Of a DNA stretch of 36,501 bases, positions 5,029 through 12,145 are shown piece after piece (positions within the stretch are counted from its first letter, which is position 1; the number at the start of each line of letters is the position of its first letter). Location: positions 1-36,501 of the forward strand of contig LFEY01000004.1 in the NCBI GenBank assembly GCA_001510275.1, in the 5' to 3' direction. The stretch comes from Thaumarchaeota archaeon casp-thauma3 (lineage in GTDB: Archaea > Thermoproteota > Nitrososphaeria > Nitrososphaerales > Nitrosopumilaceae). The translations under genes were made by a program, and so were the position numbers. The notes under the pieces are model-generated. The model had not been told where the DNA came from, ran no database searches, and worked only from the letters and a program-made list of their open reading frames with translations.

Positions 5029-5475
5029 TTAGGTAGATTCACAACATTGGCCTATTGGTATCTCATGATCATGTGGACATTTTCTTGGATGATTTAGCAT
5101 TGTACAAAGTGCATTTGTAAATTGTTTATTCATATGATGTTCAATTCCACATACCATTTCTTCATCAATTGCTACTTTTAGTGCACTATCCATGAGAACC
5201 TCTAATAATCTACTATTTCTCATCATACTTGCGCCAATTGCTTGACCTTCTTCTGTGAGTTTTACTCCCGCCTTGTTGTAATTAACCAAATTTTTACCGT
5301 TTAATTTCTTGAGCATTTGAACTACACTTGGCTGTCTAATATTGAGCATTTTTGCAATAGTGCTAATTTTGACATCTTCTCCTCTCTCTTTGATATGCCA
5401 AATTGCCTTTAGATACATCTCTACATGTTCTGCTTCTGCAGTTCCTACAAATAGAATTTCTTCATCTATATCCAT
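5029..5475 (-). CDS. DtxR/MntR-family metal-dependent transcription regulator
   Basis: The 148-residue protein has the family winged helix at about 15-75 (AEHVEMYLKAIWHIKE, IRQPSVVQMLKKL) followed by the metal-binding and dimerisation helices with C109, E112 and H113 (MVCGIEHHM) and the typical CPHDHEIP turn at 133-140. The SH3-like third domain of long DtxR proteins is absent, as in MntR. Such regulators repress iron or manganese transport genes when metal is bound. It follows the TrmB-type gene by 3 bases, so the two are almost certainly one transcript; no target genes are visible here. Confidence 0.88.
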   Translation of the reverse strand: MDIDEEILFVGTAEAEHVEMYLKAIWHIKERGEDVKISTIAKMLNIRQPSVVQMLKKLNGKNLVNYNKAGVKLTEEGQAIGASMMRNSRLLEVLMDSALKVAIDEEMVCGIEHHMNKQFTNALCTMLNHPRKCPHDHEIPIGQCCEST

Positions 5476-9424: not shown

Positions 9425-10486
9425 TTGGAAGAACAATTAACTGACATTTCATCCTCTCTTAGAACAGTAGAGTGGAAAAACAACAAAGTTGTAATGATTG
9501 ATCAAACAAAGTTACCAAATGAACTTGTTTTTGTAGAATATGATGATTTTAATCAAATTGCTGATGCCATCAGAACTCTTGTAGTGAGAGGTGCTCCTGC
9601 AATTGGTGTATCAGGTGCATTTGGTTTAGGGTTGGCTGTATTGCAAAGTAAAGCAACTACTAAAGATGAATTGATTTTAGATTTAGAAAAAGCAAAACAA
9701 ATTCTCTTTGAGACAAGACCCACTGCAGTAAACTTAGCATGGGGATTAGAAAAAATTATGAAAGTGGCAAATTCTGGAGATTCTGTAGAACAAATTAGAA
9801 AATTAGTAATTTCTGCAGCAAAAAAAATGGCAGAAGATGATATTGAAATTAACAAAACTATGGGAAAGAATGGTTCAATTCTTTTTGATGATAATGATAC
9901 AATAATGACTCATTGTAATGCTGGTGCATTAGCTACTGTTGCTTATGGAACTGCATTAGGTGTTATTCGTGCAACTAGAGAGAGTGGAAAAAATGTCAAA
10001 ATAATAGCTACTGAAACTAGACCAATTCAACAAGGTTCTAGATTAACTGCTTTTGAATTAAAACATGATGGATTTGATGTAACCTTAATTCCAGATACTG
10101 CTGTAGGATACTCAATGGCAAATGGATTAGTGAACAAAGTTATAGTTGGTGCTGATAGAATTGTAAAGACAGGACATGTCTTTAACAAAATCGGAACTTA
10201 TCAAGTAGCTACAATGGCCAAACAACACGGAATTCCATTTTATGTTGCAGCACCATTATCCACTATTGATCTGGAAACTAAAGCAGAAGATGTAATTATT
10301 GAGATGCGAAAAGGAACTGAAGTCACAGGAATTGGTGATAAAAAAACTGCTCCTGATGGTATCAACGTCATAAATCCTGCATTTGATATGACTCCCCCTG
10401 AATTAATTTCTGGAATTATTACAGAAAAAGGGGTGGCTACAGCTCCTTATGAGGAATCTATCCCAAAATTATTTGAAGATACTTAA
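9425..10486 (+). CDS. mtnA: S-methyl-5-thioribose-1-phosphate isomerase / aIF2B-like
   Basis: The family converts methylthioribose-1-phosphate to the ribulose form in methionine salvage. The sequence has the conserved text RGAPAIG, the catalytic cysteine region THCNAGALAT, and ETRPIQQGSRLTA with the active-site aspartate block VGADRIVKTGHVFNKIGTY. The frame is open from a TTG at 9362, but the TTG at 9425 gives the usual MtnA beginning and is 25-30 bases after a TATA-like box, so 353 residues are assigned. Related archaeal proteins can be ribose-1,5-bisphosphate isomerases, but the RTVEWKNNKVVMIDQ start and overall motif set favour MtnA. It is a single gene here. Confidence 0.88.
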   Translation: MEEQLTDISSSLRTVEWKNNKVVMIDQTKLPNELVFVEYDDFNQIADAIRTLVVRGAPAIGVSGAFGLGLAVLQSKATTKDELILDLEKAKQILFETRPTAVNLAWGLEKIMKVANSGDSVEQIRKLVISAAKKMAEDDIEINKTMGKNGSILFDDNDTIMTHCNAGALATVAYGTALGVIRATRESGKNVKIIATETRPIQQGSRLTAFELKHDGFDVTLIPDTAVGYSMANGLVNKVIVGADRIVKTGHVFNKIGTYQVATMAKQHGIPFYVAAPLSTIDLETKAEDVIIEMRKGTEVTGIGDKKTAPDGINVINPAFDMTPPELISGIITEKGVATAPYEESIPKLFEDT

Positions 10487-10640
10487 ACTTTTTAATTCAA
10501 CTATGATTTTAGTTTATAAAAAAACATGTTTGATTATATATTGTCATACATTTTCATACCTAAATTTTAGCGGCAGATGAGAATAGTATTTTTATTATCT
10601 ATGTGCCTACCTGAAATAATCTTGTCCAAATTTTTTCACT

Positions 10641-10657
10641 CATATGATTACTTTGTA
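10641..10657. repeat. 17-bp direct repeat, left copy
   Basis: CATATGATTACTTTGTA here recurs exactly at 11658-11674. The two copies bracket the structured RNA candidate and the DUF3800-like gene, about 1.03 kb apart. Confidence 0.6.
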
Positions 10658-10669
10658 ATGAGTAATCAT
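10644..10669. repeat. Perfect inverted repeat (9-bp arms)
   Basis: ATGATTACT at 10644-10652 and AGTAATCAT at 10661-10669 are exact reverse complements with an 8-base spacer. It overlaps the left copy of the 17-bp direct repeat and precedes the structured RNA candidate, so it could be an operator or a hairpin. No factor can be named. Confidence 0.6.
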
Positions 10670-10705
10670 ACCGTACATTTTTATGGTATTATGTTATAAT
10701 ATTAC

Positions 10706-10790
10706 TGCAGATAAGCGCGTTCCCAGGGCTGACGAGAACCGTTTGGTATATCGGCGGTAGTCTGGATTAATGCGATTATCTGTGTAATAA
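10706..10790 (+). ncRNA. Candidate structured RNA, possibly H/ACA-type guide
   Basis: A GC-rich island in AT-rich intergenic DNA. Its ends pair: GCAGATAA at 10707-10714 with TTATCTGT at 10776-10783 (one G-U). Inside, CGCG can pair with TGCG, CCAG with CTGG and CCG with CGG, giving a long interrupted hairpin. The downstream AATAAT followed by a T run (10784-10800) could include an ANA box and terminator. ATTTTTATGG at 10677-10686 is a possible TATA box about 25 bases before. The 3' end overlaps the tail of the convergent gene. Not a tRNA or 5S rRNA. The H/ACA idea is weak; the strand is inferred from promoter and T run. Confidence 0.45.
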
Positions 10791-11360
10791 TTTCTTTTTT
10801 AGTTCAGATGAAATATCTAGACGCCAATCAAATAATTGTAATTTAGGAACAGTGTAATTTTTGTTGTGACAATAGGCTACTGCATCAGCAAATTCATGTG
10901 CGATATCTTCTTGTTCCCATTTAATTCCCCAATTTCTAATAGTGTGTTTCATGTCATCATCAACTTGATAAACTAATTCTTCAGGTCTAATTCTTCTAGG
11001 AACAGTAAAATTTTCTATAAAAGGTTTAACTTTTCTTAACATAATTAAATCAAACTCACGAAAAATTGTATTGATATCAGCATACTTGTTTTTTCTTTTT
11101 TTATGATCATGAATTTCATGTACTACATTGATTTTATTAACAAGAAATGATAAAGCTATTCTATCAATATGATCAAAAGTAATTCGATCAATCACCTGTG
11201 CACGTTTTTTATTGTCTAATTTTTGCATATGGATTTTTTTTAAACCAATGTTTTTATGAAGAGAATATAGACTATCTCTAGTTCCTACTACAATTGAAAT
11301 GATCTTATGTTGATTACCATCGTCTCCAGATACATCAGCACCAGCTAAAAGCATGATCAC
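10776..11360 (-). CDS. DUF3800 / RNase H-fold-like protein
   Basis: The 194-residue protein begins with a strand and acidic turn, GADVSGD (D9), resembling the DESGD opening of DUF3800 proteins. Further acidic sites are VDDD (134-136) and EFADAVAY (D159), and a HMQKLDNKKR segment at 44-53 recalls the conserved histidine helix. Taken together this suggests a metal-dependent nuclease or integrase-like RNase H fold; the sequence is too divergent to be sure. The start may be GTG 11360 or ATG 11354 (AGGAAAG lies before the latter). It is convergent with and slightly overlaps the structured RNA candidate and lies between the 17-bp repeats. Confidence 0.6.
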   Translation of the reverse strand: MIMLLAGADVSGDDGNQHKIISIVVGTRDSLYSLHKNIGLKKIHMQKLDNKKRAQVIDRITFDHIDRIALSFLVNKINVVHEIHDHKKRKNKYADINTIFREFDLIMLRKVKPFIENFTVPRRIRPEELVYQVDDDMKHTIRNWGIKWEQEDIAHEFADAVAYCHNKNYTVPKLQLFDWRLDISSELKKKLLHR

Positions 11361-11698
11361 TTTCCTAAGTTACGGAGTAAATAAGACTTATGACTACATT
11401 ATTTCAGATAATTTTTTTGACAACGATCGTTTCTAGAGATCTTTTTGGATCATTTTTCTTTACATCAAGTACAAAATATGTACATATATCCACATGATTA
11501 TTGATAAGGAAAAATATGCGCACAAATTACACTGCTACTATGAAGTTCATATTGGCATTACTGTAACAACAATCTACGATGATCGTTATATCTAAAACTG
11601 ATCAAAAAGTTTTGAAAAATGATCGTAACTAGTTTTTCATTTACGAATTTCAGATAACATATGATTACTTTGTAGATTTGAGCCTGACATTAGTAAAA
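11361..11698. other. Gene-free stretch with clustered GATC sites
   Basis: No open frame of interest is visible on either strand in these 338 bases, and no fragment of an integrase catalytic domain. GATC occurs at 11425, 11438, 11448, 11581, 11600 and 11621, well above what an AT-rich sequence would give by chance; several sit in TGATCGTWA-like contexts, and AACGATCGTT at 11423 is a palindrome. The right 17-bp repeat is at 11658. On the minus strand the promoter of the DUF3800-like gene (TTATTTA near 11383-11389) is at its left end. Confidence 0.5.
11658..11674. repeat. 17-bp direct repeat, right copy
   Basis: Exact second copy of the sequence at 10641-10657, 24 bases downstream of the stop of the integrase-like gene. 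Here the palindromic second arm seen at the left copy is missing. Confidence 0.6.
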
Positions 11699-12079
11699 TT
11701 ATTTTAAATTTCTTTTTCTTCTAGCCTTGTATTTGTAAGGGATCCCATTCTCTCCTTTCATTGTGTATGTGAGAAGGTGTTTTGGAATAGGAGGTTTCTT
11801 ACGTCTTGCAAGAAATGTAAAGTATTCATCTAAAATCCCAACTGGATCTGTATCTGGTTGCTTTAGTGAATCTAAAAACTGCTCAAAGTCTTGATTGTAC
11901 TGTTTTTGAATATAGTCGATGAATCTACTCACAATTACTCTGTAAGAGTCTCTTGTAGCGTGACTTCTAGAAATTCTATACTTTCGCTCAAGATATGTTT
12001 CAAGTTTGTTTTCTAGTAATGTCTGCACGCTTGATTTGAGCCCAACTGAGTTACTTAAAGACCGAGTTAATGCCAACAT
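11699..12079 (-). CDS. Stand-alone tyrosine-recombinase N-terminal (SAM-like) domain
   Basis: The 126 residues contain a core-binding-domain pattern: VQTLLENKLETYLERKY, then SHATRDSYRVIVSRFIDYIQ and VGILDEYFTFLARR, as in phage integrase N-terminal domains. The catalytic domain with its R-H-R-Y residues is absent: the frame ends in a basic tail KYKARRKRNLK and a TAA, and nothing downstream on the minus strand continues it. It is either a truncated integrase or a small DNA-binding protein derived from one; the intact start and normal codon use favour a functioning gene. Confidence 0.65.
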   Translation of the reverse strand: MLALTRSLSNSVGLKSSVQTLLENKLETYLERKYRISRSHATRDSYRVIVSRFIDYIQKQYNQDFEQFLDSLKQPDTDPVGILDEYFTFLARRKKPPIPKHLLTYTMKGENGIPYKYKARRKRNLK

Positions 12080-12145
12080 AGAATTGTATTATTTGAAGCT
12101 AATTAATAGAAAGTTTTTATTGTTTTTCAAACTGCAATCTACAAT

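Follow-up and report, generated by a model that had tools for sequence, protein, structure and literature searches.

Structure of the hairpin and its convergent gene

We analysed a 36,501-nucleotide stretch of DNA (hereafter the window) from Thaumarchaeota archaeon casp-thauma3, an ammonia-oxidising member of the Nitrosopumilaceae, corresponding to positions 1-36,501 of contig LFEY01000004.1 on the forward strand. Between mtnA and an iron-sulphur (FeS) assembly gene, the window carries a candidate structured noncoding RNA (ncRNA) of about 78 nt on the plus strand, which runs towards the 3' end of a gene encoding a small RNase-H-like protein on the minus strand; the coordinates are collected in Table 1. 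An earlier reading made from the sequence only (the sequence-only reading) had described here a closed stem around further complementary pairs, GC-rich in AT-rich surroundings, preceded by a possible TATA box, followed by a T run, and pointing toward and touching the end of the gene. All of these features were recovered in the present analysis. The closing stem is formed by GCAGATAA (10707-10714) and TTATCTGT (10776-10783) with further pairs nested inside, and the hairpin extends into the final codons of the gene. Its GC content is 50%, compared with 24% in the upstream DNA, 29% in the gene and 33% in the whole window.

The plus strand of the hairpin folded with a minimum free energy of -31.4 kcal/mol against -20.1 +/- 3.5 kcal/mol for shuffled sequences (z -3.24), and 1 of 200 shuffles folded equally well, while the minus strand gave -19.5 kcal/mol (z -2.31). 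When the window was scanned on both strands in 9106 segments of 78 nt with a step of 8, in which the hairpin scored -29.4, equal or stabler folds were found only at two tRNA genes and at one spot at the contig start. The Rfam scan of the whole window detected three tRNAs only, and no match appeared at the hairpin locus even when the threshold was relaxed to E 10. Likewise, blastn with the hairpin against 95 same-genus genomes and phage records returned nothing real, because the hairpin sequence alone is too divergent.

Recurrence of the hairpin beside related genes

Relatives of the 194-aa protein were found in 11 of 250 Nitrosopumilaceae genomes including its own, with up to six copies each, several of them broken. 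In these 11 genomes, 22 of the 23 related genes had a hairpin located -16 to +127 nt from the stop codon, and the RNA strand ran against the gene in 21 of the 22. In the genome G027, the hairpin lay farther from the gene, within the same module. A covariance model, R1, was constructed from 13 hairpins of other genomes on the gene strand, and a second model, R2, was rebuilt on the opposite strand. The search of the 250 genomes with R1, in which many genomes were drafts and the model calibration was short, detected 28 copies in 8 genomes, of which 15 were just 3' of a gene and 13 were not; some copies formed arrays, in G383 and G478. R2 also matched hairpins outside its training set, in G435 (E 7e-6) and G545 (E 1.2e-4).

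The structure was supported by covariation: over 27 RNAs, 13 of 16 pairs showed double changes, and the covariation score was 0.486, compared with 0.268 in shuffles and at most 0.187 in slid alignments. On the strand opposite to the gene, 80 G-U pairs were counted against 15 A-C mismatches, and 34 of 37 hairpins folded better on this strand. As G-U pairs far outnumber A-C mismatches there and the folds are better, the strand opposite to the gene was assigned as the RNA strand, which in the window is the plus strand, in line with the sequence-only reading. In the wide family, conservation was highest in the internal loop and lowest in the apical part, which was still paired, with loops of mostly 3-4 nt.

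The DNA upstream of the hairpins contained a seven-base AT-rich block, placed at -27 relative to the base of the hairpin (z 10.4 over the 28 R1 hits; 0 of 2000 jittered controls). The block held separately for the gene-adjacent copies and for the others, and position -27 was A or T in all 37 hairpins. T-rich DNA followed the 3' base of the hairpin across the family. The TATA box and the T run of the window are placed with the same spacing as that conserved in the family. This layout fits a putative archaeal promoter, an RNA and a terminator, and all three are present in the window.

The strand and promoter data bear on the possibility that the hairpin functions as a DNA element, namely a recombination site resembling integron attC or a transposon end, with the RNA form being incidental. 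Such an element would agree with the multiple copies and the arrays in G383 and G478, with a location 3' of a gene as in attC, and with the truncated tyrosine recombinases near two copies. However, the ratio of G-U to A-C and the TATA position fixed at -27 are signals at the RNA level, no integrase of the searched type lies beside most copies, and no consistent direct or inverted repeats were found around the other copies, the only shared repeats being those of the tandem duplicates in G383. We therefore regard a DNA element as very improbable.

An ordinary guide RNA of the H/ACA or C/D type, or a terminator hairpin arisen by chance, is harder still to reconcile with the data. The length and hairpin form suit a single-hairpin H/ACA RNA, which the sequence-only reading had offered as an alternative; that alternative found no support, as no Rfam match was obtained and the internal loop, where H/ACA guides vary, is the best conserved region in the wide family. 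In addition, the 3' tail is T-rich with no ANA box as judged by eye, and the RNA is tightly linked to one protein family. Moreover, a hairpin is not required for termination in archaea. Explanations of this kind seem scarcely credible.

Several further observations were made on the family. Some gene-adjacent hairpins, in L144, L146 (G383b, d, e), L159 and L115 (G072, G068a), were not matched by the family models; these seem to be additional sequence subtypes that keep the promoter spacing of the family. L145:3770-6504 (G383) carries three RNA copies, a duplicated small open reading frame (ORF; MEVHIF...) and remnants of nuclease genes, as if a module had been duplicated in tandem. The solo RNA of G024 was absent from four relatives in an empty-site comparison, in which its boundaries could not be fixed. 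A weak R2 match in G342, from another family (E 4.8e-4 per genome, 398 genomes), had unrelated neighbour genes and was treated as chance.

Kinship of the window RNA

As the window scored low with R2, its kinship was tested separately. The alignment of the window hairpin with that of G010 scored 54, compared with a maximum of 36 in 5000 shuffles, with 25 of 29 pairs kept and five changed on both sides. A two-sequence covariance model of these hairpins, R3, gave the window 93 bits (the window itself being part of R3) and, over 214 genomes, detected two unseen members, in G025 (44.8 bits, E 2.6e-10) and G574 (35.9 bits, E 1.8e-7), both without a partner gene. In the four members, 9 of 25 pairs showed compensatory double changes with 96% paired cells (0 of 500 shuffles), and the covariation score of 0.60 dropped to at most 0.15 once the partners were slid; this result is favoured by the way in which the four sequences were aligned, namely to fit the structure. 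Compensatory changes in relatives, by which the sequence-only reading had proposed to judge its candidate, are thus found, and the pair of RNA and gene recurs. By this comparative evidence the predicted RNA of the window is real, and it likely belongs to the wide hairpin family.

On contig C6 of G574 (L232), the window-type RNA near 5372-5446 stands without the gene among small, mostly same-strand ORFs. Weak HNH and DNA-binding matches were found in this stretch, which is possibly viral or plasmid DNA.

Partner protein

The window protein matched nothing in Pfam, NCBIfam, PADLOC or PHROG. The AlphaFold2 model was confident (predicted local distance difference test score, pLDDT, 93.9; predicted TM-score, pTM, 0.89), and among solved structures it was matched best by human RNase H2 (E 0.019). 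Among viral proteins, one of the top two fold matches was a named DUF3800 protein (E 0.0012, TM 0.42). D8, S10, D133, D135 and D158 (A3 numbering) were invariant in 15 sequences and plausibly form a metal site. The label "DUF3800-like" of the sequence-only reading consequently had support at the level of the fold and not by Pfam score, since the cut-off of Pfam DUF3800 (PF12686) was reached by none of the eight members tested. The profile-profile match to canonical archaeal DUF3800 was also weak (P 0.0045, probability 8%). For a canonical DUF3800 protein, a prediction from one sequence alone failed to give a confident structure (pLDDT 34). The window protein nevertheless resembles PF12686 in its predicted RNase-H-like fold, in D-x-S-G near the first strand and in L-A-D-x-x-A-Y/W in a late helix. 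Searches for the protein in viral contigs, phages and plasmids found no relatives, and motif patterns gave nothing in viral contigs. The PDB sequence search with the protein profile gave chance matches only, and the scan of genome contigs returned the query's own record only.

Comparison with known systems

Among known kinds of element, the DUF3800 motif RNAs come nearest. Weinberg et al. 2017 (doi 10.1093/nar/gkx699), as cited in PMC10910872, reported candidate structured RNAs that accompany DUF3800 genes, and Rfam holds DUF3800-IX (RF02968) and DUF3800-I (RF02969) motif RNAs (PMC11701678). According to PMC10910872, DUF3800 itself adopts the RNase H fold and shows a catalytic rearrangement. 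In both cases a structured RNA stands beside a gene for an RNase-H-fold protein, here at 22 of 23 genes. However, none of the DUF3800 models in Rfam matched, whether 18 loci were searched at E 1 or the surroundings of the window hairpin at E 10, and the present family is archaeal with a protein below Pfam DUF3800 detection. As there was no Rfam match and the protein stayed below Pfam detection, the family was not counted among the DUF3800 RNAs, a separation drawn by model search. In the literature searched, no function was found for DUF3800-type proteins and their RNAs, linked since 2017.

One lone RNA of the present family, in G046, lies about 390 nt from a canonical Pfam DUF3800 gene. Lone RNAs near such genes or fragments (L197:3074-4354; G079:C23:28602-29750) hint that the RNA can pair with the canonical family too. 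When the surroundings of canonical DUF3800 genes were scanned for hairpins, no convincing RNA emerged.

TnpB and its OMEGA RNA offer another comparison, sharing with the present pair an RNase-H/RuvC-type nuclease whose gene has an RNA at its 3' end. The likeness raises the possibility of an RNA-guided nuclease, in which the RNA would carry or expose a guide that, like the omega RNA of TnpB, steers the RNase-H-fold protein to a DNA or RNA target. The presence of several RNAs in one genome, the solo RNAs, the tandem copies of G383 and G478 and the high variability of the apical part would be in accordance with it. Against this stand the pairing of that apical part, which leaves mostly 3-4 nt loops, and the position of the promoter and the T run, which set both RNA ends at the base of the hairpin, so that no long single-stranded flank remains. 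With hardly a base left unpaired and both ends at that base, a base-pairing guide is unlikely. The present RNA also differs from the OMEGA type: it lies on the strand opposite to the gene, has a promoter of its own and shows no evident guide, its apical region not having been searched for target matches. The partner protein has only about 190 aa and no TnpB-type domains in Pfam or NCBIfam; to our knowledge, known RNA-guided effectors are all far larger. We judge a guide function quite improbable.

Defence neighbourhoods

Two copies of the gene are joined to sspC of the SspABCD type, a system considered together with type 4 BREX. The gene order in G068 is sspB-type (by eye), sspC, the partner gene, the RNA and sspD-type, and in G027 the partner gene directly follows sspC. 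In both, the distance between sspC and the partner gene is at most 10 nt or the genes overlap, fitting an operon. The two Ssp phosphorothioation operons with a DUF3800-like gene, L155:3750-9430 and L199:8-6880, suggest that this gene may be an undescribed Ssp accessory gene; the SspABCD and type 4 BREX reviews searched did not mention DUF3800. Most copies, including that of the window, have no ssp genes nearby. The copy in G010 is near a cytosine methyltransferase, named by sequence motif. The mobile and defence settings suggest that the module acts against, or is carried by, foreign DNA.

These settings also bear on the nearest rival, a toxin-antitoxin or abortive infection system composed of a toxic nuclease and an RNA antitoxin, which would act either by binding (type III-like) or as an antisense to the 3' end of the mRNA (type I-like). 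It overlaps with the explanation that we prefer and differs in calling the protein a toxin. The convergent and touching layout, the patchy spread over the genomes, the broken gene copies and the links to Ssp and restriction-modification loci are all in keeping with it, and the solo RNAs could be anti-addiction copies. However, the RNA overlaps the mRNA only slightly and often not at all (-16 to +127 nt), which disfavours antisense pairing, and most copies have a single RNA, unlike the type III ToxI, which is a repeat array. A toxin-antitoxin system is accordingly considered unlikely, if less so than the other alternatives.

Proposed ribonucleoprotein module

The hairpin at 10706-10784 on the plus strand is almost certainly an ncRNA, and the RNA and the protein very probably form a functional pair. 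We prefer to read them, with a probability of roughly 0.55 for the reading as a whole, as a ribonucleoprotein (RNP) module on mobile or defence DNA, consisting of a promoter-driven ncRNA and a convergent RNase-H-fold partner, with the RNA as a cofactor or inhibitor. The RNA would be transcribed from its own archaeal promoter (TATA at -27) and ended at a T-run terminator, and the protein is predicted to be a metal-dependent nuclease. From the constant pairing, the conserved internal loop and the fixed promoter, we infer that the RNA is made for binding by the partner protein. The compact RNA would then dock on the protein and control or assemble the nuclease with no base-pairing to targets, and the module, carried by mobile and defence DNA, may serve in defence. 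On balance, a cofactor or inhibitor is favoured over a guide.

Several findings weigh against this reading. The RNA of G010 is co-oriented with its gene and not convergent. Roughly half of the RNAs found by R1 do not lie 3' of a partner-family gene, so the RNA may act alone or in trans. The window received only 2.2 bits from R2 (E 2.7), though at the right place and strand, and the bridge from R3 to R2 is weak, the R2 member G480:C202 being matched at E 0.023 with the same coordinates and strand; the window thus joins the wide family via G010 and this bridge together with the shared gene position. The E-values of the fold searches (0.019 and 0.0012) are modest.

More tentatively, we envisage an undescribed class of archaeal RNP nuclease, a small RNase-H-fold enzyme that requires, or is checked by, a hairpin RNA with its own promoter, encoded against the 3' end of the enzyme's gene; such an enzyme would spread on mobile elements and be recruited into Ssp operons, leaving behind solo RNAs that act in trans. 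The archaeal family now has a mapped RNA strand, a promoter and ends predicted from sequence, and a conserved internal loop, as well as a confident protein model showing the likely active site, and natural variants that have or lack the gene. With these, one can directly test whether a DUF3800-type nuclease is an RNP, a question that they also tie to the known Ssp defence operon.

Insertion at mtnA

The RNA and its gene lie within an inserted segment (Table 1). In most relatives, comprising about 20 same-genus genomes, the FeS-assembly gene follows mtnA after 49-52 bp, compared with 1.66 kb in the window, and the 11-bp repeat ATTATTTGAAG, present in two copies flanking the insertion, occurs once at the empty site. 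The sequence-only reading had noticed two 17-bp repeats around the RNA and the gene; these are exact copies inside the insertion, the boundaries of which lie elsewhere, at the ATTATTTGAAG copies. The recombinase fragment shared 32-40% identity with the N-termini of recombinases of about 420 aa, and its match to XerA_Arch (E 0.017) was below the cut-off. A truncated integrase adjoins both the window copy and the G068a copy.

Table 1. Features in and around the insertion of the window
Feature	Position	Strand	Basis or remark
Structured ncRNA, single long imperfect hairpin, ~78 nt	10706..10784	+	fold z, R3 match, covariation, G-U/A-C strand counts
TATA box of the RNA, TTTTTATG	10678..10685	+	-29 to -22 from hairpin base
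T-rich stretch after the RNA, likely archaeal terminator	10791..10800	+	inside 3' end of convergent gene
RNase-H-like (DUF3800-like) protein gene, 194 aa	10776..11360	-	convergent with RNA; ORF, homologs, AlphaFold2, fold matches
Insertion, 1.62 kb, between mtnA and FeS-assembly gene	10479..12098	.	empty sites in ~20 same-genus genomes
Left 11-bp repeat ATTATTTGAAG, att-like	10468..10478	.	end of mtnA, insertion boundary
Right 11-bp repeat ATTATTTGAAG, att-like	12088..12098	.	
Truncated tyrosine recombinase, N-terminal part, 126 aa	11699..12079	-	adjoins right insertion end
17-bp exact repeat CATATGATTACTTTGTA, copy 1	10641..10657	+	within palindromic stretch 10643-10670, upstream of RNA promoter
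17-bp exact repeat CATATGATTACTTTGTA, copy 2	11658..11674	+	

In Thaumarchaeota, integration is known to target the 3' ends of protein genes and to involve short repeats (PMC6563490). Six same-genus genomes (L053, L058, L062, L063, L064 and L068) have other DNA after mtnA in place of the FeS-assembly gene. As the FeS gene does not directly follow mtnA in these six either, the 3' end of mtnA looks like an integration hotspot.

At 10641-10670, the left 17-bp repeat makes up half of a palindrome, TATGATTACT...AGTAATCATA, located about 40-60 nt upstream of the RNA start, which is a possible regulator site. Elsewhere in the window, a very stable fold (-29.6 kcal/mol) was observed on the minus strand at 9-86, at the contig edge and outside the RNAs found by the tools.
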